DNA of 64,000 nt from Pseudomonas sp. P7548 (GTDB lineage Bacteria; Pseudomonadota; Gammaproteobacteria; Pseudomonadales; Pseudomonadaceae), in assembly GCF_013386585.1 (NCBI RefSeq), contig NZ_JACARO010000047.1:62001-126000 (forward strand). The letters are read 5' to 3'. Below, piece after piece: positions 18,591-62,000 of this stretch. A program made the translations under genes and the position numbers. The notes beneath the pieces are model-generated. The model was not told the origin of the DNA. It did no database searches and worked only from the letters and a program-made list of their open reading frames with translations. The first letter of the stretch is position 1. Every line of letters begins with the position of its first letter.

Positions 18591-18688
18591 CCAAATGTGG
18601 GAGCGGGCTTGCTCGCGAATACGGTGGATCAGCAATGAAGGTATTGCCTGACACACCGCATTCGCGAGCAAGCCCGCTCCCACATTGG
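18591..18688. repeat. paired inverted REP element (REPIN-type)
   Basis: The arm CCAAATGTGGGAGCGGGCTT (18591) and its partner ending ACATTGG (18688) enclose a less conserved centre. It is the same core family as at 737 and 4492, with one mismatch where the left arm reads GAATACGG. Confidence 0.87.
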
Positions 18689-18831
18689 ATCTGTGTAAGG
18701 TATCGGTAGTGGCTCAAAGCTAGCATTCATTGGGCGCTGCAAATCATTCCTTTGGCTGATTTGGCTGAAACATAAGGTCTCTAAAGTGCAAGTCTTCAAG
18801 CCAAGACCGTGTAGTCAGATAAGGGATTCGT

Positions 18832-20514
18832 ATGTTGCAGACCCGTGTTATCCCACCCGCCGAAGGCGCGTACCAATACCCGCTGTTGATCAAACGCCTG
18901 TTGATGTCCGGGACCCGCTACGAGAAAACCCGGGAAATCATCTACCGCGACAAACTGCGCTACACCTACCCCACCCTGATCGAGCGGGTGGCCCGGCTGG
19001 CCAATGTGCTGACCGAGGCCGGGGTGAAGGCCGGCGATACCGTGGCAGTGATGGATTGGGACAGCCATCGCTACCTCGAATGCATGTTCGCCATCCCGAT
19101 GATCGGCGCGGTGATCCACACCATCAACGTGCGCCTGTCGCCGGAACAGATCCTCTACACCATGAACCACGCCGAAGACCGCTTCGTGCTGGTCAACAGC
19201 GAGTTCGTGGGACTTTACCAGGCGATTGCCGGGCACCTGACGACCGTCGACAAGACCCTGCTGCTCACCGACGGTGACGCCAAGACCGCCGAGCTGCCAG
19301 GCCTGGTGGGCGAGTACGAAACCCTGCTGGCCGCCGCCAGCCCCACGTACGACTTCCAGGATTTTGACGAAAACTCGGTCGCCACCACCTTCTACACCAC
19401 TGGCACCACCGGCAACCCCAAGGGCGTGTACTTCACCCACCGCCAACTGGTCCTGCACACCATGGGCGTGGCGACGATCATGGGCAGCGTCGACAGCGTG
19501 CGTCTGCTGGGCACCAACGACGTGTACATGCCGATCACGCCGATGTTCCACGTACACGCCTGGGGCCTGCCGTATGTGGCGACCATGCTTGGCTTGAAGC
19601 AGGTCTACCCCGGCCGCTACGACCCCGAGTACCTGGTGGAGCTGTGGCGCAAGGAAAAGGTCACGTTTTCCCACTGCGTGCCGACCATCCTGCAGATGGT
19701 GCTCAATGCCAAGGCGGCCCAAGGCGTGGATTTTGGCGGTTGGAAAATCGTGATTGGCGGCAGTGCGCTCAATCGGACCTTGTACGAAGCCTCCAAGGCC
19801 CGTGGGATTCAGCTGACGGCCGCGTACGGTATGTCCGAGACCGGGCCGCTGGTGTCCTGTGCCCACCTCAATGAAGAGCTGATGGCCGGCACCGAGGATG
19901 AACGCACCACCTACCGCATCAAGGCCGGTGTGCCCGGGCCACTGGTGGAGGCGGCAATCATCGACGCTGACGGCAACTTCCTGCCTGCCGATGGCGAGTC
20001 TCAGGGCGAGTTGGTGCTGCGGGCGCCGTGGCTCAGCGAAGGTTATTTCAACGAGCCTCAGAAGGGCGCCGAGCTGTGGGAAGGCGGCTGGATGCACACC
20101 GGTGACGTGGCCACGTTGGATGCATTTGGCGTGATCGATATCCGTGACCGCATCAAGGATGTGATCAAGACGGGCGGGGAGTGGATCTCGTCCCTGGCCC
20201 TGGAAGACCTGGTCAGCCGCCATCCGGCGGTACGCGAAGTAGCGGTGGTGGGCATTGCCGACCCGCAGTGGGGTGAGCGTCCGTTTGCCTTGCTGGTGGT
20301 GCGTGATGGCCATGTGATAGGTGCGCGGGAGCTCAAGGAACACCTCAAGCCCTTCGTTGAATTGGGCCACCTGAGCAAGTGGGCGATTCCGAGCCAGATC
20401 GCGGTTGTTACTGAAATTCCCAAGACCAGCGTAGGAAAGCTCGACAAAAAACGTATCCGCATCGACATCATCGAATGGCAGGCCAACAACAGTACGTTCC
20501 TGTCCACCCTGTGA
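18832..20514 (+). CDS. AMP-forming fatty acyl-CoA ligase
   Basis: A 560-residue ANL-superfamily enzyme that activates a fatty acid via acyl-AMP to acyl-CoA. The P-loop is TTFYTTGTTGNPKGVYFTHR (residues about 183-202), the A5 motif YGMSETGPLV, and the A7/A8 hinge TGDVATLDAFGVIDIRDRIK with KTGGEWISS. The conserved C-terminal lysine that drives adenylation is in KTSVGKLDKKRIR. It resembles the medium-chain acyl-CoA synthetases of P. putida. AAGGGA precedes the ATG. It is followed by DUF1302, DUF1329 and a LuxR regulator in the same direction, which points to lipid uptake and use. Confidence 0.9.
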   Translation: MLQTRVIPPAEGAYQYPLLIKRLLMSGTRYEKTREIIYRDKLRYTYPTLIERVARLANVLTEAGVKAGDTVAVMDWDSHRYLECMFAIPMIGAVIHTINVRLSPEQILYTMNHAEDRFVLVNSEFVGLYQAIAGHLTTVDKTLLLTDGDAKTAELPGLVGEYETLLAAASPTYDFQDFDENSVATTFYTTGTTGNPKGVYFTHRQLVLHTMGVATIMGSVDSVRLLGTNDVYMPITPMFHVHAWGLPYVATMLGLKQVYPGRYDPEYLVELWRKEKVTFSHCVPTILQMVLNAKAAQGVDFGGWKIVIGGSALNRTLYEASKARGIQLTAAYGMSETGPLVSCAHLNEELMAGTEDERTTYRIKAGVPGPLVEAAIIDADGNFLPADGESQGELVLRAPWLSEGYFNEPQKGAELWEGGWMHTGDVATLDAFGVIDIRDRIKDVIKTGGEWISSLALEDLVSRHPAVREVAVVGIADPQWGERPFALLVVRDGHVIGARELKEHLKPFVELGHLSKWAIPSQIAVVTEIPKTSVGKLDKKRIRIDIIEWQANNSTFLSTL

Positions 20515-20523
20515 TGCTTTCCG

Positions 20524-20543
20524 CCGCGCCCGTTCGGGCGCGG
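20524..20543 (+). terminator. GC-rich hairpin after the acyl-CoA ligase
   Basis: CCGCGCCC-GTTC-GGGCGCGG is a perfect 8-bp stem with a tetraloop, seven bases after the stop codon region. No T run follows, so it may stabilise the 3' end or terminate weakly rather than act as a full intrinsic terminator. Confidence 0.5.
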
Positions 20544-20847
20544 CAATGCTCTATCTGGCGCCTTCACTTGTGATTTGCCGATTTTCAGCCATCCTTGCCC
20601 CGCCGACCTTTGTCGGCATGGCGAAAGGGTTGCGGCAGACGGGTCGGTGATGCAAATCACACTTTAGAGGGATCAAGCGATACCCCCTGCTGGCTATAGT
20701 CCTTCCCAGAGTTTTTCAAGGATGTTGCGCTTCGGGCCATGGGGGCTCGGTTGCCGTCCGGCATTGGAATCGTTGTATTCCGGCCGTTACATGCATCTGT
20801 AAGAAAAAGCTCACTGCCATAACAATAATGCACATGGAGTAGCGTCG
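20544..20847 (+). promoter_or_regulatory. control region of the DUF1302 gene
   Basis: A 304-base gap with no gene. It contains a hairpin GCCGAC-CTTT-GTCGGC near 20602-20617, a CRP/Vfr-like dyad GTGA-N6-TCAC (20647-20650 and 20657-20660), a -10-like TATAGT near 20697, and AACAATAA (20821-20828), an exact match to the A-rich Crc/Hfq target, placed just ahead of the GGAG ribosome binding site (20836-20839). Together these suggest catabolite control. A GG-N10-GC pair at 20620/20632 resembles a sigma-54 core but departs from the consensus. Confidence 0.5.
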
Positions 20848-22707
20848 ATGACCTCAGTAAACCAGTTCTGGCGCCGGGCAAGACTGCCCTTGGCCGTCAG
20901 TCTCGCTTCTACGCTCGCCGGGCCCGCATTCGGCGTCAGTTTCAACATCGGTGAAATCGAAGGCAGCTTTGACTCCTCCCTGTCGGTGGGGGCGAGCTGG
21001 TCGACGGCCAAACCCAACCAGGATCTGATCGGGGTCAACAACGGCGGCAAGGGCCTGTCCCAGACCTCCGATGACGGCCACTTGAACTTCAAGCGCGGGG
21101 AGACGTTCTCGAAGATCTTCAAGGGCATTCATGACCTGGAACTGAAATACGGCGACACCGGCGTGTTTGTGCGCGGCAAGTACTGGTACGACTTCGAACT
21201 CAAGGATGAAAGCCGTCCGTTCAAGGACATCAGCGACAACAACCGCAAGGAAGGCGCCAAGTCTTCTGGCGGGCAGATCCTCGACGCCTTCATCTACCAC
21301 AACTACAACATTGCCGATTTGCCGGGCAACGTGCGTTTCGGCAAGCAGGTGGTGAGCTGGGGTGAAAGTACCTTCATCGGCGGCGGCATCAACTCCATCA
21401 ACCCGATCGACGTGTCCGCATTCCGTCGCCCGGGGGCCGAGATCAAGGAAGGCTTGATTCCGGTCAACATGTTCTATGTGTCGCAAACCCTCACCGACAA
21501 CCTGTCGGCCGAGGCGTTTTACCAGCTGGAATGGGACCAGACGGTGACCGACAACTGCGGCACGTTCTTCTCGCAGCCCGATATCGTGTCCGACGGTTGC
21601 AACAACAACCTGCGTGTCTTGAACAAGCGCTCGACCATCCCGACGGCATTCCTGCCGGCACTGGCTGCCCGTGGCGTAGACATCAACAACGAAGGCGTCT
21701 TGGTGCGTCGCGGTGGCGACGACGATGCGCGTGACAGCGGCCAGTGGGGCGCGGCGCTGCATTACAACTTCGAACCACTGGACACCGAGTTCGGCGCGTA
21801 CTTCATGAACTACCACAGCCGTGCGCCGATCTTCAGCGCTCAAGCGGCTTCCCAGGCGGCGTTCAACAGTGCGGCACCGTTGGGCCAATTGGCACCGTTG
21901 GTCGTGGCGGGTAACTCCCGGTACTTCATGGAATACCCGGAAGATATTCGCCTCTATGGCCTGAGTTTCTCCACCACGCTGCCTACCGGCACCGCCTGGA
22001 GTGGTGAGTTGAGCTATCGCCCGAATGCGCCGGTTCAAATCAGCTCCACTGACATCCTGTATGCCGGTGTTACGCCTTTGCCAGGCCTGGGTGATGCGTC
22101 GATCATCAAAGGCTCGCCGGGCCAACTGCTCCACGGCTACAACCGCAAGGAAATCACCCAGTTCCAGACGACCTTTACGCACTTCTTCGATCAGGTCATG
22201 GGCGCCAGCCGCCTTACGCTGGTGGGCGAAGTCGGGGTTACTCACGTGGGTGGCCTGGAAAGCAAAAATGATGTGCGTTATGGCCGCGATCCAGTGTTCG
22301 GCCCTGGCACCTTGCCCAATGGTTTCTGCCCGACGCTCAACGGGCGGACTGTCGCCGGTGCAGGCCCGGGGGCCGATGCCAGCAACGTCTCCGCCAACTG
22401 CAACAACGACGGTTTCACCACGTCCACCTCGTGGGGCTACCGTGGTCGTGCCATCTGGGAATACCCGGATGTGTTCGCCGGCGTGAACCTCAAGCCGAGC
22501 GTTGCCTGGTCCCATGACGTCAAAGGTTATTCGCCAGGTCCTGGTGCCAACTTCGAAGAAGGTCGTAAAGCGGTCAGCCTGGGTCTGGATGCGGAATACC
22601 AGAACACCTACACCGCCAGCCTGAACTACACCAACTTCTTCGGCGGCGACTACAGCACCGTGAATGACCGCGACTTTGTCGCCCTGAGCTTCGGCGTGAA
22701 CTTCTAA
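20848..22707 (+). CDS. DUF1302 outer-membrane protein
   Basis: 619 residues. A signal peptide is seen in the first 30 residues (RRARLPLAVSLASTLAGPAFG, cleavage near residue 30). The rest has many short amphipathic stretches with aromatic residues at their ends, and the chain finishes RDFVALSFGVNF with a terminal phenylalanine, the usual signal for BAM-assembled beta-barrels. These features and the DUF1302 family pattern (SNQ/GLRFGKQVVSWGEST type block, here RFGKQVVSWGESTFIGGG) point to an outer-membrane barrel. With DUF1329 next to it, it is a candidate pore or receptor for lipids. Function unproven. Confidence 0.88.
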   Translation: MTSVNQFWRRARLPLAVSLASTLAGPAFGVSFNIGEIEGSFDSSLSVGASWSTAKPNQDLIGVNNGGKGLSQTSDDGHLNFKRGETFSKIFKGIHDLELKYGDTGVFVRGKYWYDFELKDESRPFKDISDNNRKEGAKSSGGQILDAFIYHNYNIADLPGNVRFGKQVVSWGESTFIGGGINSINPIDVSAFRRPGAEIKEGLIPVNMFYVSQTLTDNLSAEAFYQLEWDQTVTDNCGTFFSQPDIVSDGCNNNLRVLNKRSTIPTAFLPALAARGVDINNEGVLVRRGGDDDARDSGQWGAALHYNFEPLDTEFGAYFMNYHSRAPIFSAQAASQAAFNSAAPLGQLAPLVVAGNSRYFMEYPEDIRLYGLSFSTTLPTGTAWSGELSYRPNAPVQISSTDILYAGVTPLPGLGDASIIKGSPGQLLHGYNRKEITQFQTTFTHFFDQVMGASRLTLVGEVGVTHVGGLESKNDVRYGRDPVFGPGTLPNGFCPTLNGRTVAGAGPGADASNVSANCNNDGFTTSTSWGYRGRAIWEYPDVFAGVNLKPSVAWSHDVKGYSPGPGANFEEGRKAVSLGLDAEYQNTYTASLNYTNFFGGDYSTVNDRDFVALSFGVNF

Positions 22708-22750
22708 GCACACACTCTTTTTGCAGTCTGTATTTCAGGAAGACCAGAAC

Positions 22751-24115
22751 ATGAAAATAACCAAAAGTCTGTTGCACGTGGGTGTGCTTGGGCTGTCGAT
22801 CCTGGCGAGCAACGTCATGGCGGCAGTGTCGGCGGATGAAGCCGCCAAGCTGGGCACGACCCTGACGCCGATGGGCGCTGAAATGGCCGGTAACGCGGCG
22901 GGCACCATTCCGAAGTGGTCGCCGCTGCCGACCAACGCCGGCGCTGTCGACGCCCGTGGTTTCCTGGCCAACCCTTACGCCAGTGAACAACCGCAATTCA
23001 CCATCACCGCGGCAAACGTCGAACAGTACAAAGACAAGCTGGCGCCGGGGCAGTACGCAATGTTCAAGCGCTACCCGGACACCTTCAAGATGCCGGTCTA
23101 CCCGACCCATCGCGGCGCCACCGTGCCGGCGGATGTGTTCGCGGCCATCAAGAAGAACGCCACCACCACTAACCTGGTGTCGGGCGGCAACGGCCTGGAG
23201 AATTTCGAAACCGCCGTACCGTTCCCGATTCCAAAAAGCGGCGTGGAGGTCATCTGGAACCACATCACCCGTTATCGCGGTGGCAGCGTAACCCGCCTGG
23301 TAACCCAGGCCACGCCGCAAACCAACGGCTCCTTCAGCCTGGTGTATTTCAAAGACCAGTTCGTGTTCCGCGACAAGATGAAAGACTTTGACCCGAAAAA
23401 CCCGGGCAACGTGCTGTTCTACTTCAAGCAGCAAGTGACCGCGCCGGCCCGCCTGGCCGGTGGCGTGCTGCTGGTGCACGAAACCCTGGACCAGGTGAAG
23501 GAGCCGCGTTCGGCGTGGGTCTACAACGCCGGCCAGCGCCGTGTGCGCCGGGCGCCGCAAGTGTCGTATGACGGCCCGGGTACTGCCGCCGACGGCCTGC
23601 GTACTTCCGACAACCTCGACATGTACAACGGCGCACCGGACCGCTACGACTGGAAGCTGGAAGGCAAGAAAGAAATCTACATCGCCTCCAACAGCTACAA
23701 GATCGACGATCCGAAGCTCAAGTACGCCGACATCATCAAGGCCGGTCACATCAACCAGGACCTGGCGCGTTACGAGTTGCGCCGCGTCTGGCACGTGGTC
23801 GCCACCTTGAAGGAAGGTCAGCGTCACATCTACGCCAAGCGTGACTTCTTCATCGACGAAGACACCTGGCAAGCCGCGGTGATCGACCATTACGATGGCC
23901 GTGGCCAACTGTGGCGCGTCGCCGAAGCCCATGCCGAGAACTACTACGACAAGCAAGTGCCGTGGTACGCCCTGGAAACCCTCTACGACCTGCAGTCCGG
24001 CCGCTACCTGGCCCTGGGCATGAAGAACGAAGAGAAACAGGCCTATGACTTCGGCTTCACCGCCACCACCAGCGACTTCACCCCGGCGGCCCTGCGCCAG
24101 GATGGCGTCCGCTAA
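22751..24115 (+). CDS. DUF1329 periplasmic protein
   Basis: 454 residues. The signal peptide MKITKSLLHVGVLGLSILAS is followed by an AMA cleavage site (residue about 24). DUF1329 proteins have a LolA/LolB-like fold with a hydrophobic groove. Family segments seen here are TPMGAEMAGNAAGTIPKW near the N-terminus, WNHITRYRGG, and the central block AWVYNAGQRRVRRAPQVSYD. CAGGAAG at 22737-22743 sets the start; an upstream extension in frame is not credible. It begins 43 bases after the DUF1302 gene, so they form one operon. It is likely a periplasmic lipid-binding partner of DUF1302 (inference). Confidence 0.88.
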   Translation: MKITKSLLHVGVLGLSILASNVMAAVSADEAAKLGTTLTPMGAEMAGNAAGTIPKWSPLPTNAGAVDARGFLANPYASEQPQFTITAANVEQYKDKLAPGQYAMFKRYPDTFKMPVYPTHRGATVPADVFAAIKKNATTTNLVSGGNGLENFETAVPFPIPKSGVEVIWNHITRYRGGSVTRLVTQATPQTNGSFSLVYFKDQFVFRDKMKDFDPKNPGNVLFYFKQQVTAPARLAGGVLLVHETLDQVKEPRSAWVYNAGQRRVRRAPQVSYDGPGTAADGLRTSDNLDMYNGAPDRYDWKLEGKKEIYIASNSYKIDDPKLKYADIIKAGHINQDLARYELRRVWHVVATLKEGQRHIYAKRDFFIDEDTWQAAVIDHYDGRGQLWRVAEAHAENYYDKQVPWYALETLYDLQSGRYLALGMKNEEKQAYDFGFTATTSDFTPAALRQDGVR

Positions 24116-24150
24116 CCCGCGATAATTCGCCAATGTAGAAGCTGGGCTTG

Positions 24151-24241
24151 TGTGGGAGCTGGCTTGCCTGCGATAGCATCACCTCGGTAGGTCTGACAGA
24201 CCGAGGTGGCTGCATCGCGGGCAAGCCCAGCTCCCACATTT
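24151..24241. repeat. paired inverted REP element, GAGCTGG subtype
   Basis: The left arm TGTGGGAGCTGGCTTGCCTG (24151) pairs with the arm ending CTCCCACATT at 24240, and an inner stem CACCTCGG/CCGAGGTG adds to it. A degenerate half copy (GTAGAAGCTGGGCTTG) lies just upstream. It separates DUF1329 from the LuxR gene. Confidence 0.85.
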
Positions 24242-24371
24242 GTTTGTGTTGAGATTTTTTGTCGCAGTTCTTTTTCAGGCAAATGTTGCAAAGATCTACA
24301 AACCCGCCGCTTTTACCGCTAGTCTGCGGACATCTGCAATGCCGACAACAGCCTTCTACAAGAGCCCGGCG

Positions 24372-27101
24372 ATGACTGATCTGTCCCGAATCCCAGGGCC
24401 TGCAAGCGTCGTGATTCCGACCCTGGAAGCACGCTTTTTCAGGCCACCGCTGCCTGACGGCTACGTGCTGCGGCCTCGCCTGTGCGAACGGCTGGGTGCG
24501 GGGTTGGAAGGGCGCTTGCTGCTGGTCAGCGCGCCAGCGGGGTTCGGCAAAAGTTCGTTGGCGGTGGAATTCTGCCAGGGCCTGCCGGCCCATTGGCAAA
24601 GCCTGTGGCTGGGGCTGAGCCCCCGGGATAACGACCCCGGCCGCTTCCTCGAGCGCCTGCTCGACGGCCTGCAGCAATATTTCCCCCAGATCGGCGCCCA
24701 ATCCCTGGGGTTGCTGAAAATGCGCCAGCGTCACCAGCCGTTTGCCTTTGAAGAATGGCTCGATGGCTTGCTCGACGAGCTGACGCTGCACCTTTCCACG
24801 CGCGCGCCGTTGTTGCTGGTGCTGGATGACTACCACTTGGCCCAGGGTCCGGTGCTGGATCGCTGCCTGCAGTTTTTCCTCAACCATTTGCCCGACGGCC
24901 TGGTGGTACTGGTCACCAGTCGCCAGCGTCCGGATTGGCATCTGGCGCGGTTGCGCCTGTCACGGCATCTGCTGGAATTGCACGAGCAAGACCTGCGCCT
25001 GACCCACGATGAGTCGTTGGCCGTATTGCACCAGCACAGCAACTCACTGCGCGGCGAGGCGCTGGATAACCTGATCCGGCGCAGTGAAGGCTGGGTGGCG
25101 GGCCTGCGTTTCTGGTTGCTGGCCGCCTCTGAGGCCGGCAATGAAGGTGCCTTGCCGCAGAGCCAGCACGGCGGGGAAGGGCTGATTCGTGATTACCTGC
25201 TTGAAGAGGTGATCGATTGCCTGCCTGCCGAAGTCCAGGCGTTCCTCTACGACACCGCCCCCCAGGAACGTTTTTGCGCCGAACTGTGCGACGCAGTGCG
25301 TGATGCCCACGACAGTGCCGAAACCCTGCGTTACCTTCAGGCACATCAAGTATTCCTGGTACCACTGGACGAGCAGGGCCACTGGTTCCGGTATCACCAT
25401 CTGTTTTCCGATTTGCTGCGCACCCGTCGTGCAAAAAACGCCACATTGCCGGTGGCCAGTCTGCATCTGCGAGCGTGTCGCTGGTTCAACGCCCAGGGCC
25501 TGATCGATGAAGCGGTGGAGCAGGCCTTGCGCGCCGGTCATCTCGACGTAGCCGCGAACCTGGTGCAGAACCTGTCTGAAGAGCAATTGCTGGCCGAGCA
25601 GAACGTGGGCATGCTGTTGCGCTGGAAGATGGACTTGCCCGACAGCCTGCTGATCAGCACGCCGCGCTTGATCGTGCTGTACAGCTGGGCCTTGGGGCTG
25701 GCGTGCCAGCTGGATGCGGCAGAAGAATTATCTGGCTACCTCAGTCGCTTCCTGCCGGCACCGTCGGCCACCGCGCAAAAGTCGATGCTGGCCCAGTGGC
25801 TGGCACTGAGCGGGATCATCGCCCGGGGGCGCGGCGACCGCGAACTGACCCAGCGCTATTGCGGCGAGGCCCTGGAAAGCCTGCCGCAAAAGCGCTACGG
25901 CCAGCGCCTGATGTGCCTGTCGACGCTGTCCAACCTGGCCATTGTCGACGCCGACCTGTGGCGCGCCCGTGGCCTGAACCGCGAGTCCCTGGAGCTGGCG
26001 CAGCGCGTCGGCAACCCGTTGTTCGAAGCCCTGGCCCATTACGACCGCGCCCGCGTGTTGCAGGCCCGGGGCGAAATCCTGCGCTCGCTCGATGAGGTGC
26101 GTCAGGGCCTGCAGCGTTTGCATGGCCTGGCGCCCCAGCGGCTGTACGCCGTGCGTGCGCGCTTATCGCTCTACGAAGGTTATTTGCTGCTGGCGCGCTA
26201 TCAGCCTGAAACCGGCTTGGCGCGCTTGCGTGCCGGCCTGGCCGAAGCCCGTGCCTGCCGGGATATCAGTGTGCTGATCGGGCATTGCGTCATCGCCAAC
26301 TTCGAAGGGCGGCGCAATGATTTTCCCACGGCGTTCGCCGAACTCGCCGAAGCCGAGCGCCTGATGCATATCTGGGATGTGCCGCCGATCTACTACCTGG
26401 CGATGATCACCCTGATCAAATGCGAACTGTGGCTAGCCCAGGGCCGCACCGACCTGGCCGATGCCTGGCTGGCGCGGTTGGGGCAGACCTACAACGGCGA
26501 GCATGCCGCTGCGGCCCCGGAGTTTCATCCGCACCTGCCGCAACACATCGGCCTGCAGCAAGCCGCGCTGGACGCCACGCGCCATCAACCTGCCGCCGCC
26601 CTGCAACGGCTTGATGAACTGGCGCAACAGGCACACAACGACGGCCGCCAGATGATTGCCCTGATGGCGCTGACCCAACAGGCGCATCTGCTGCTCGAAA
26701 CCGGCCAGGAAACCAAGGCGCGGCCGGTGCTGGCCCGTGCTCTTGAAGCGGGAGCCGGTGGTGCGCTGCAACCCTTCCAGCGTTTGCTGGAGAGCCACCC
26801 CGACTGGATGCGCGAGCAGCTTGGCAGAGACCCCCATGGCTTGCTGAATCAAAGCCTGCTGGGGCTGCTTCCGGTGGTTGCGGTTGCCGAAACCTCACCC
26901 AGCCACGAAACCTTGAGCGCCCGCGAACTGGCGGTGCTGCAGCTGATCGCCCAAGGCTGTTCCAACCAGGAAATCAGCAATCGGTTGTTCATTTCGCTGC
27001 ACACGGTGAAGACCCATGCGAGCCATATCAACAGCAAGCTGGGCGTAGAGCGGCGCACGCAGGCGGTGGCAAGGGCGCAGGAGTTGCGCTTGATTGGCTA
27101 G
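24372..27101 (+). CDS. MalT-like LuxR-family ATP-dependent transcription regulator
   Basis: A 909-residue LAL/MalT-type regulator. An N-terminal STAND NTPase has the Walker A motif SAPAGFGKSSLAVEF (Lys60) and a hydrophobic Walker B stretch LLLVLDDYHLA. A long helical, TPR-like middle (residues about 400-830) follows, and then a C-terminal LuxR helix-turn-helix from residue 848 (LSARELAVLQLIAQGCSNQE, then SLHTVKTHASHINSKLG). Such proteins bind an inducer and ATP and activate nearby promoters. Position after acyl-CoA ligase-DUF1302-DUF1329 makes it the likely activator of that set. The start at 24372 (MTDLSRIPG) is preferred; ATG 24339 is possible. Confidence 0.9.
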   Translation: MTDLSRIPGPASVVIPTLEARFFRPPLPDGYVLRPRLCERLGAGLEGRLLLVSAPAGFGKSSLAVEFCQGLPAHWQSLWLGLSPRDNDPGRFLERLLDGLQQYFPQIGAQSLGLLKMRQRHQPFAFEEWLDGLLDELTLHLSTRAPLLLVLDDYHLAQGPVLDRCLQFFLNHLPDGLVVLVTSRQRPDWHLARLRLSRHLLELHEQDLRLTHDESLAVLHQHSNSLRGEALDNLIRRSEGWVAGLRFWLLAASEAGNEGALPQSQHGGEGLIRDYLLEEVIDCLPAEVQAFLYDTAPQERFCAELCDAVRDAHDSAETLRYLQAHQVFLVPLDEQGHWFRYHHLFSDLLRTRRAKNATLPVASLHLRACRWFNAQGLIDEAVEQALRAGHLDVAANLVQNLSEEQLLAEQNVGMLLRWKMDLPDSLLISTPRLIVLYSWALGLACQLDAAEELSGYLSRFLPAPSATAQKSMLAQWLALSGIIARGRGDRELTQRYCGEALESLPQKRYGQRLMCLSTLSNLAIVDADLWRARGLNRESLELAQRVGNPLFEALAHYDRARVLQARGEILRSLDEVRQGLQRLHGLAPQRLYAVRARLSLYEGYLLLARYQPETGLARLRAGLAEARACRDISVLIGHCVIANFEGRRNDFPTAFAELAEAERLMHIWDVPPIYYLAMITLIKCELWLAQGRTDLADAWLARLGQTYNGEHAAAAPEFHPHLPQHIGLQQAALDATRHQPAAALQRLDELAQQAHNDGRQMIALMALTQQAHLLLETGQETKARPVLARALEAGAGGALQPFQRLLESHPDWMREQLGRDPHGLLNQSLLGLLPVVAVAETSPSHETLSARELAVLQLIAQGCSNQEISNRLFISLHTVKTHASHINSKLGVERRTQAVARAQELRLIG

Positions 27102-59075: not shown

Positions 59076-62000
59076 TCAGTGTGTGGTCGCCAACGCAGGC
59101 GCAGGTGTGGGCCGGTGGAAAAACTTCTCAAGGTACAAGTATATGACCGGTGTAGTGAACAGCGTCAGCGCCTGGCTCACCAGCAAGCCGCCGACCACCG
59201 CGATACCCAGTGGCTGGCGCAACTCGGCGCCGGCGCCATAGCCGAGCATCAGTGGCAGGGCGCCGAGCAGGGCCGCCAAGGACGTCATGATGATAGGACG
59301 GAACCGTGTGATGCAGGCCTCGAAGATCGCATCCTGCGGGGTGAGCCCGCGTGTACGCTGGGCCTCCAGGGCGAAGTCGATCAGCAAGATGCCGTTCTTC
59401 TTCACAATACCGATCAGCAGCACCAGCCCGATCAGCGCCATGATCGAAAAGTCCTGGCCCAGCAGCCACAACATGACCAGTGCACCCAGGCCCGCCGAGG
59501 GCAGGGTCGAGATGATGGTCAGCGGGTGCACAAAGCTCTCATACAGCACCCCCAGAATGATGTAGACCGCCACCAGCGCGGCGAGGATCAGCCATGGCTG
59601 GCTCGCCAGCGAACTCTGGAACGCCTGGGCGGCACCCTGGAAGTTGCCGATGATTGAGGTCGGCATGCCGATCTCGTTTTTCGCCTGGTTAAGCAGGATC
59701 ACCGCATCGCCCAGGGCCACGCCGGGCGCCAGGTTGAACGACAGGTTGGCGGCCGGGAACATGCCATCGTGGCTGATGGACAACGGCCCGACCGTGGGTG
59801 CATCGACGCTGGCCAGTGCCGACAGTGGCACCATCTCATTGGTCAGGGGCGAGCGCAGGTAGAAGTAGTTCAGGCTTTCGGCCTTGCCGCGCTGGCGGGT
59901 GTCGAGTTCCAGCACCACTTGGTACTGGTTGATTTCGGTCTGGAACTCGTTGACCTGGCGTTGCCCGAAGGCATCGTACAGCGCCTGGTCGACGTCGGTG
60001 GCGGTCAAGCCGAAGCGTGCAGCCGCGCGGCGGTCGATGGTGATGTGGGTGATGCTGCCGCCCAGCTGCAGGTCGTTGGAAATATCGCGGAACGCCGGAA
60101 TGGAGCGCAGTTTTTCGGTCAGGCGTTGGGTCCAGGTATTGAGCGTCGCGCCGTCGTTGCTCTTGAGCACGTATTGGTACTGGCTGCGGCTGGGGCCCGA
60201 GCTGAGGTTGATGTCCTGGCCGGCGCGCAGGTACAGGACAATCCCCGGTACTGCGGCCAATTTGGGCCGGATGCGGTCGATGAATTGGCTGGCGGACACG
60301 TCCCTGTCACCCCGGTCCACGAGGGAGATCCAGAAGCGGCCGTTGGCGATGGTCTGGTTGCTGCCGGTGACGCCGACGGAGTGGGAGAAGGCTCGCACGG
60401 CAGGGTCGGCCTTCATGATTTCGGCCAGTGCCTTGTGCTTGGCAACCATGTCCGGATACGACACGTCCGCTGCGGCTTCGCTGGTACCGAGCACGAAACC
60501 GGTGTCCTGTACCGGGAAAAAACCCTTGGGGATAAACACGTAGCCGACCACGGCCAGGCCCAGGCTCAGCAGGAAAATACCTGCCATCGTGCGTTGATGG
60601 GCCAGGGCACGTCGCAGGTTTCTTTCGTACCCCGCCAGCAGGCGTTCACCAAAGCCGGGTTTGTCATGGGGGCGATGGTGGGGCGCCTTCATGAACAGCG
60701 CCGCCAGGGTCGGCGCAAGTGTCAGGGACACCACGACGGAAATCAGGATGGTCGAGGTGGCGGTCAAGGCGAATTCCTTGAACAGCCTGCCGACCACGCC
60801 GCCCATGAACAGCAGCGGGATAAACGCGGCCACCAACGACACGCTGATCGACACCACGGTAAAGCCAATCTCGCTGGCACCCTTGATCGCCGCCTCGCGC
60901 TTGTCCAGGCCGGTTTCGAGATGGCGATGGATGTTCTCCACCACCACGATCGCATCGTCCACCACAAACCCCACGGCCACCACGATGGCGACCAGGGTCA
61001 GGTTGTTCAGGCTGAAGCCCATCACGTACATCAGCGCAAAGCTGGCAATCAGCGACACGCCCAGCACGCTGGACACAATGATGGTGGCCGACCACTGGCG
61101 CAGGAAAATCGCCATCACCCCCACCACCAGCAGGATGGCGATCAGCAGGGTCATTTCCACTTCGTGCAGCGAGGCACGGATGGTGGTGGTGCGGTCCATC
61201 AGCACGCTGACCTGGACCGAGGCCGGCAGCATGGCTTCCAGGCGCGGCATTTCGGCTTGGATGCGTTCTACGGTCTCGACAATGTTGGCGCCGGGCTGGC
61301 GAGTAATCACCAGGTTGACGCCGGGAGTGTCAACCGCCCAGGCCTGGACGTAGGCGTTTTCCGAACCATTGACCACCTTGGCCACATCCCGCAGTTGCAC
61401 GGGGGCGCCGTTCTTGTAGGAGATGATCAGGTCGCCGTATTCATCCGGGTGAAACAGCTGGTCGTTGGTCGCCAGGGTCGACACGCTGTTCTTGCCGTAC
61501 AGCGCGCCCTTGGCCAGGTTCAGGCTGGATTGCTGGATGGCCAGGCGAACGTCCGCCAGGGTCAGGCCGATGGCTGCGAGCTTGTCGGGCGAGGCCTGCA
61601 CGCGGATCGCCGGGCGTTGCTGGCCGGTGATATTGATCTGGCCGACGCCGTCGACCTGGCTGAGCTGCCGGGCCAGCAGGGTTTCTACCAGGTCGCTCAA
61701 CTCGGTACCGGGCATGTCATGGGAACTGACGCTGATGATCAGCACCGGGCTGTCTGCCGGGTTGACTTTGCGCCAGGTCGGCAGGCTCGGCATATCACTG
61801 GGCAGTTTGCCGGCCGCGGTGTTGATGGCGGCCTGCACCTCCTGCGCCGCCGTGTCGATGCTCTTGTCGAGGGTGAATTGCAGGGTCAGCAGGCTTGAGC
61901 CCAGGGCGCTGCTGGAGGTCATCTGGGTCATGCCGGGGATGGCACTGAATTGCACTTCCAGCGGCGTCGCCACGGAGGACGCCATGGTGTCGGGGCTGGC

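Follow-up and report, generated by a model that had tools for sequence, protein, structure and literature searches.

Proteins of the families DUF1302 and DUF1329, both named by Pfam as families of unknown function, have been placed near fatty-acid, terpene and hydrocarbon catabolism in several papers, the consulted parts of PMC10866462 and PMC6394551 among them. In Castellaniella defragrans, AmeABCD is encoded by one monoterpene cassette, comprises a DUF1302 protein, a DUF1329 protein, a COG4447 protein and an HAE3 RND pump, and is described as a system for efflux and tolerance (PMC6394551). In Pseudomonas putida KT2440, PP_0765 and PP_0766 are essential on Tween 20, and a 'novel transport system' with a predicted barrel has been proposed for them (Foldy, PMC10866462); both genes are cofit with PP_2018, coding for a periplasmic protein, and PP_2019, coding for an efflux transporter (PMC10866462). 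Mutants of the ligase gene PP_0763 exhibit a severe defect on C5-C6 and a moderate defect on C7-C10 substrates (PMC9744835), and a C6-C12 chain range is given for the P. aeruginosa ligase PA3924/FadD6. The P. aeruginosa DUF1302 protein, PA3923, has been described as an outer-membrane protein that binds laminin and supports biofilm formation on it. Among the expression values in the published excerpts available to us, the MPAO1 proteins change in one direction (ligase -5.06, DUF1302 -2.80 and DUF1329 -2.62, assigned from neighbouring tags), and PP_0763 (0.50) and PP_0765 (0.45) also share one direction in KT2440; further values are 11.3 (p 0.038) for PA3922, 8.1 (p 0.143, not significant) for PA3923, -7.1 for the PP0765 transcript and -2.9 for the PP0763 protein. 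Because the transport role of PP_0765/PP_0766 and the chain-length work on the ligase are in print, the core idea of an earlier note on this DNA, a lipid uptake system built from the ligase, a DUF1302 barrel, a DUF1329 carrier and a MalT-like regulator, is largely published.

Layout of the cluster and its predicted proteins

The window analysed here is a 64-kb stretch of a draft Pseudomonas genome of 7.05 Mb. It contains four genes with open frames, all on the plus strand as the earlier note had described them, and Pfam and NCBIfam profiles confirmed their families:

18832..20514, plus strand: fatty acyl-CoA ligase (PP_0763 / PA3924 FadD6-like), with an AMP-binding domain (242 bits) and the C-terminal domain
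20848..22707, plus strand: predicted DUF1302 outer-membrane beta-barrel, Pfam PF06980 at 597 bits over profile positions 4-541 of 541
22751..24115, plus strand: predicted periplasmic LolA-like DUF1329 protein, Pfam PF07044 at 539 bits; the ATG at 22751 is the likely start
24339..27101, plus strand: MalT-like regulator of the LuxR family; start uncertain (24240, 24339 or 24372)

A gap of 333 bp separates the ligase and DUF1302 genes, and one of about 220 bp, containing REP-like inverted repeats, separates the DUF1329 gene from the regulator gene. Conserved promoter-like blocks precede the ligase gene, the DUF1302 gene and, less clearly, the regulator gene. Because of these gaps and separate blocks, the four genes do not form a single operon. 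The co-directional arrangement described earlier stands, but the organisation is that of a two-promoter regulon plus a regulator gene, with a likely MMPL partner elsewhere. By eye, REP-like inverted repeats were seen at 18595-18690 of the window, before the ligase gene, and at 24150-24240, before the regulator gene. At about 60684-61274 of the window, the minus strand matches the MMPL profile with 33.5 bits; this is a portion of an RND pump gene in an open frame of 1036 aa.

An annotated P. aeruginosa record carries the ligase, DUF1302, DUF1329 and regulator genes in identical order, and we take these to be PA3924-PA3921. Gene order and content suggest that the ligase corresponds to PP_0763 and PA3924, and that the cluster as a whole matches PP_0763 (ligase), PP_0765 (DUF1302) and PP_0766 (DUF1329) of KT2440, as these are given in the consulted parts of PMC10866462 and PMC9744835. 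The ligase passes the NCBIfam cut-off for long-chain-fatty-acid--CoA ligases (PRK06187 subfamily; 689.4 against 476 bits), which places it in the fatty-acid activating family as claimed earlier; its orthologs act on medium chains according to the published excerpts. The fitness effects on medium-chain substrates that the earlier note mentioned for P. putida hold for the ligase PP_0763 (C5-C10), but for the two DUF genes the effect given in the published excerpts concerns Tween 20 and not free acids of medium chain length.

The DUF1302 protein ends in FGVNF, and signal-like N-termini were read by eye on both it and the DUF1329 protein. Its predicted structure (mean pLDDT 68.9, pTM 0.68) has about 18 long strands, counted from the strand list of the model, and aligns as a porin-type barrel across residues 36-619. 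The best fold match was a BenF-like porin (Z 23.4 over 322 residues), followed by Occ porins, AlgE and MOMP. The structure prediction thus agrees with the outer-membrane barrel proposed earlier. DUF1302 was the only Pfam family found in this protein at E <= 0.001, with no FadL/Toluene_X match at that level; FadL was likewise absent among the 50 fold matches listed in each of two structure listings, an absence that excludes nothing. In 14 genomes (L073, L103, L110-L121) an open DUF1302 gene is kept where DUF1329, the regulator and the conserved MMPL are lost, and 13 of the 14 are also without the ligase in the stretch read. The barrel may therefore be useful alone there.

For the DUF1329 protein the model (pLDDT 80.5, pTM 0.85) matched LolA3 (9tp6) with Z 20.3 over 237 residues at an rmsd of 2.8, and the DUF1329 structure 4z48 with Z 18.7, supporting the LolA/LolB-like fold that had been claimed. 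The LolA-like domain spans about residues 160-452. The C-terminal domain thus has its fold in common with the LolA/LolB carriers, whereas the protein is longer than these and has an extra N-terminal part, and the fold does not imply a lipoprotein cargo. Its nearest named relatives, at 98-99% identity, include proteins of P. paralactis, P. costantinii, P. simiae, P. grimontii and P. veronii.

A common promoter element and its link to the MalT-like regulator

Upstream regions from 36-40 relatives were compared with those of the window, and the following promoter features were recognised:

18741..18762, plus strand: element E2 (AAATCATTCCTTTGGCTGATTT), where an activator of the ligase promoter would bind, at near-constant distance to the ligase start in regulator-bearing relatives, with 0-6 mismatches
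18782..18787, plus strand: TAAAGT, the -10-like hexamer of the ligase promoter; E2 starts 41 bp upstream of it
20654..20674, plus strand: element E1 (AAATCACACTTTAGAGGGATC), candidate binding site for the regulator at the DUF1302-DUF1329 promoter; allowing up to 2 mismatches, 357 of the 398 Pseudomonas genomes searched have its first 20 bp
20695..20700, plus strand: TATAGT, the -10-like hexamer of the DUF1302 promoter; E1 starts 41 bp upstream of it

A 20-bp element is common to the promoters of the ligase and DUF1302 genes and has one geometry in both. TATAGT lies at +41 from E1 in 41 of 43 genomes, and TAGAGT, TACAGT or TAAAGT at +41 from E2 in 38 of the 43. When E1 and E2 are aligned in the register set by the -10 hexamers, a mean of 13.6 of 20 positions match across the 43 genomes, compared to at most 8.3 of 20 when the two are shifted by up to 10 positions either way. 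Both elements are present with identical geometry in the P. aeruginosa record. The pattern TGCAAATCANNCNTTNG has two exact matches in the genome of origin, both in this cluster; within the window, 5 element matches were found at up to 2 mismatches against 0.73 expected by chance, and the sole exact two are the E1 and E2 sites. A larger regulon was considered and rejected, as the seven one-mismatch matches to TGCAAATCANNCNTTNG in this genome resemble chance (the reversed control gave 1 match).

The regulator matches the Pfam profiles LuxR/GerE (65.1 bits, cut-off 23.5) and TPR_MalT (51.4 bits, cut-off 45), and its N-terminus has a weak AAA_16 match (26.1 bits) under the cut-off of 32.6. It also falls under the NCBIfam MalT equivalog cut-off (303.6 against 537 bits), indicating that it is not MalT itself. 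The MalT TPR region and the C-terminal LuxR helix-turn-helix are shared with MalT and with AlkS-type (LAL) regulators. It may resemble AlkS; the name AlkS did not occur among the 25 listed of 389 matching plasmid records. A search of titles and abstracts found no paper on the regulator or its operator, which is not proof of absence.

We examined the co-occurrence of regulator and element in 398 Pseudomonas genomes, scoring a regulator ortholog at E <= 1e-200 and E1 by its first 20 bp with at most 2 mismatches. The cross-table was made by hand, and 19 regulator-less genomes were identified by set difference. The regulator ortholog is present in 359 of the 398 genomes; 356 have both regulator and E1, 3 the regulator only, 1 the element only and 38 neither. 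The reversed E1 control pattern gave one match in each of 2 genomes. In the three regulator-only genomes (G027, G266, G320), E1 is found with 3 mismatches near the usual place, and in the element-only genome (G273) a 6-kb contig ends short of the place of the regulator. Among 73 fetched loci, E1 with at most 3 mismatches occurs in 43/43 with the regulator and in 1/30 without it (G273). The other 29 regulator-less loci keep a DUF1302 gene of this type, the best-aligned piece of which is 59-81% identical, and none of them has E1 at that level. Remnants of E1 with 4-5 mismatches are seen in regulator-less G003, G164 and G315, and the -10-like TTTAGT or a close variant is kept next to an eroded E1 in G001, G382, G394, G358 and G147. 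A DUF1302 tree was built by a quick search from 74 rows and an outgroup and has several long branches; in the pair test on it, from which G273 was left out, 7 of 7 independent pairs agree between regulator and E1 on the starred branches (p 0.0156). The simplest reading of these comparisons is that the MalT-like regulator binds E1.

E2 provides weaker evidence for a link to the regulator than E1, because it is partly kept without the regulator and has diverged in several genomes with it. Regulator-less G037 and G358 retain it with at most 3 mismatches and G001, G147, G164, G382 and G394 at 4-6 mismatches; in several regulator-bearing genomes it stands at 5-6 mismatches. Upstream of the ligase gene in regulator-less loci (L104, L105, L123-L125) we observed an inverted-repeat variant of E2 of the type CAATCA-N10-TGATTG, imperfect in L105, and perhaps another factor binds this variant ahead of the ligase. 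Six regulator-less genomes were searched for a replacement motif; the regions ahead of their ligase and DUF1302 genes had no 9-mer in common, and the YCF48 locus showed no palindrome that matched.

A distant YCF48-MMPL pair and the other DUF1302-DUF1329 clusters

The earlier note had stated that an MMPL transporter, found with DUF1302/DUF1329 in other clusters, is absent here. There is indeed no MMPL match beside the cluster, but an unlinked YCF48-MMPL pair is present elsewhere in the genome (locus L019), which led us to reject a system without MMPL. Neither DUF1302 nor DUF1329 lies alongside this pair, which from its gene type would correspond to PP_2018/PP_2019. All but one of the 59 genomes in the first sample have an MMPL of the L019 type (best matches at 77-100% identity). 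At E <= 1e-290 it is present in 379 of the 398 genomes and in 357 of the 359 with the regulator, the exceptions being G240 (77% complete) and G380. In six genomes read (G013, G023, G014, G028, G012 and G041; L093, L096-L100) the pair is part of a four-gene DUF1302-DUF1329-YCF48-MMPL cassette, and in a seventh genome of the first sample, G054, a DUF1302 match lies about 3 kb from this MMPL. Over the 74 rows, DUF1329 and the L019-type MMPL are both present in 60 and both absent in 14, with no mismatch. Joint loss corresponds to two independent events on the tree, both concordant but too few for significance; with just two independent losses, this co-loss proves little.

Control of the pair by an E-type element was also considered and rejected: neither the pair (L019) nor cluster B (L018), described below, has an E-type match at up to 2 mismatches, and the promoter box of the YCF48 gene differs. 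This box, TTAACAAAAGATAACG, is conserved upstream of TTGTCA and TAGGAT; of the 6 cassette-type loci read, all except L096 have it between DUF1329 and YCF48 as well. We scored the box as kept when at least 14 of 16 positions matched; 20 shuffled loci gave 10-13. Over the 55 rows for which both loci were fetched and the regulator state was known, with G273 left out, 38 of 40 regulator-bearing genomes keep the box, the two in which it is eroded being G050 and G057, and none of the 15 regulator-less genomes that have both loci does. By independent pairs, 4.4 of 5 agree and 0 disagree, which is not significant. Outside this table, among regulator-less genomes that also lack the A-type cluster (that of the window), the box is kept in G250, G284 and G330 and eroded in G287 and G051; the three that keep it indicate that another factor may bind the box. 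In G037 the regulator, E1 and the YCF48 box are all gone and a TAG interrupts the MMPL frame, consistent with decay of the set.

The genome of origin has three DUF1302 and three DUF1329 genes, in clusters A (in the window), B (L018) and C (L017); we saw no MMPL next to either A or B. Cluster B (L018:4794-13851; G000:C212) contains DUF1302, DUF1329 and a MalT-like regulator of its own, and the part read shows neither an MMPL gene nor an E-type element; the ORFs that precede DUF1302 in it were named by eye as class II aldolase-like, alpha/beta hydrolase-like and SDR-like. Cluster C (L017:2829-12690; G000:C173) is a complete DUF1302-DUF1329-YCF48-MMPL cassette, followed by MFS-like and fumarylacetoacetate-hydrolase-like genes and flanked by a divergent LysR-like gene (names partly by eye). 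G027 has twelve DUF1302 matches (E <= 1e-100), none within 10 kb of any of its five MMPL matches, the nearest being about 12 kb away. On conjugative Pseudomonas plasmids, L215 and L217 carry full DUF1302-DUF1329-YCF48-MMPL/RND cassettes, one of them adjoining acyl-CoA dehydrogenase and CoA-transferase genes and close to an IS1071 transposase; in L216 (pUM505 record), DUF1302-DUF1329 is followed by a DUF1254 gene, between AraC-type regulators, with no YCF48-MMPL in the stretch shown.

We tentatively consider, as a possibility of rather low probability, that the one conserved YCF48-MMPL pair is a shared motor for several DUF1302-DUF1329 outer gates, each under a MalT-like activator of its own, in the way that many receptors rely on TonB. 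The cluster of the window would then be one of these gates, for fatty acyl esters, and its activator would also control the motor in trans. Clusters A and B without an adjoining MMPL and the layout of G027 fit one motor with several gates and are no proof of it. Such an arrangement, if true, would be a new organising principle for the Gram-negative handling of hydrophobic food.

Import, efflux and comparison with known systems

We favour, with a moderate degree of confidence, the reading that the cluster encodes the outer half of an envelope transporter that handles fatty acyl compounds and resembles AmeABCD but is split between loci, joined by a cargo-activating ligase and a MalT-like activator. 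From families, predicted folds, promoter elements and co-occurrence, all drawn from sequence, we infer the binding of the regulator, the substrate and the direction of transport, of which the inward direction is the least certain. The MalT-like regulator would bind the common element and activate the ligase and DUF1302-DUF1329 promoters. The distant YCF48-MMPL (RND) pair would be the inner-membrane partner, belonging to the same circuit directly or via a second factor. Fatty acyl esters or fatty acids would be admitted by the DUF1302 barrel, the acyl chain would be shielded in the periplasm by the LolA-like DUF1329 protein, the YCF48-MMPL pair would take over at the inner membrane, and the ligase would trap the acid as acyl-CoA. 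We counted against a split import transporter the efflux role of AmeABCD, the genomes with DUF1302 alone, the two joint losses, the lack of an E-type element at YCF48-MMPL, the box kept without the regulator and eroded in two genomes with it, the exporter names of the MMPL relatives of solved structure, the partial survival of E2 and the laminin binding of PA3923.

RND pumps usually export, and because of this polarity and the description of AmeABCD as an efflux system, efflux remains a serious rival, which we consider appreciable although clearly less probable than import. The barrel, the LolA-like protein and the YCF48-MMPL pair would here expel toxic fatty acids or surfactant during feeding, so that the growth defect on Tween 20 would reflect poisoning rather than failed uptake. 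Deletion of AmeABCD in Castellaniella lowered monoterpene tolerance and raised the net influx of Nile Red, but an ameB insertion also hampered growth on the substrates (PMC6394551, consulted parts). The MMPL relatives with solved structures among the matches are named exporters, such as MmpL3-5, whereas co-regulation with an activating ligase better fits catabolism. That the barrel is a stand-alone porin or adhesin, with its neighbours linked solely through common regulation, appears improbable: retention of DUF1302 alone in 14 genomes and the laminin binding and biofilm support reported for PA3923 are consistent with it, but DUF1329 lies in the fetched stretch together with DUF1302 in 60 of 74 rows, and the two genes share the Tween 20 phenotype in the consulted parts of PMC10866462. 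Very unlikely is an esterase role, in which the DUF pair, alone or as a component of the enzyme, would cleave Tween and other acyl esters at the cell surface and leave the released acids to the ligase, since although hydrolase activity was suspected earlier, as reported in PMC10866462, its authors moved to transport, and both of our models match porin or carrier folds.

The analysis names a specific operator of 20 bp, a protein that may activate through it and an unlinked locus for the probable partner, and turns the function and direction of DUF1302/DUF1329 into a set of single-gene tests. What our literature searches did not turn up is the operator and how it is tied to the regulator, and, for the distant pump, the co-loss and the connection through its promoter. 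Like the window system, AmeABCD consists of a DUF1302 barrel, a LolA-like DUF1329 protein, a COG4447 (YCF48-type) periplasmic protein and an HAE3 RND pump; its four genes lie together, as far as described in the parts consulted, whereas here only the outer two lie together, accompanied by the ligase and the MalT-like regulator. The DUF1302 barrel and the adjacent LolA-like DUF1329 protein of AmeABCD-type systems were found here, and YCF48 and HAE3/MMPL were not found in the cassette. As the YCF48-MMPL pair is unlinked, the cluster may work like AmeABCD but is not filed as a member. The PA3924 (FadD6)-PA3921 cluster has the gene order and both elements in common with the window, and its DUF1302 protein was studied, in the excerpts available, as a laminin binder and biofilm factor. 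PP_0765/PP_0766 with PP_2018/PP_2019 of KT2440 likewise resemble the window, with the DUF pair beside the ligase and a periplasmic and an efflux partner at a distance; to the account in the consulted parts of PMC10866462, the present analysis adds the regulator, the operator, the promoters and the loss data.
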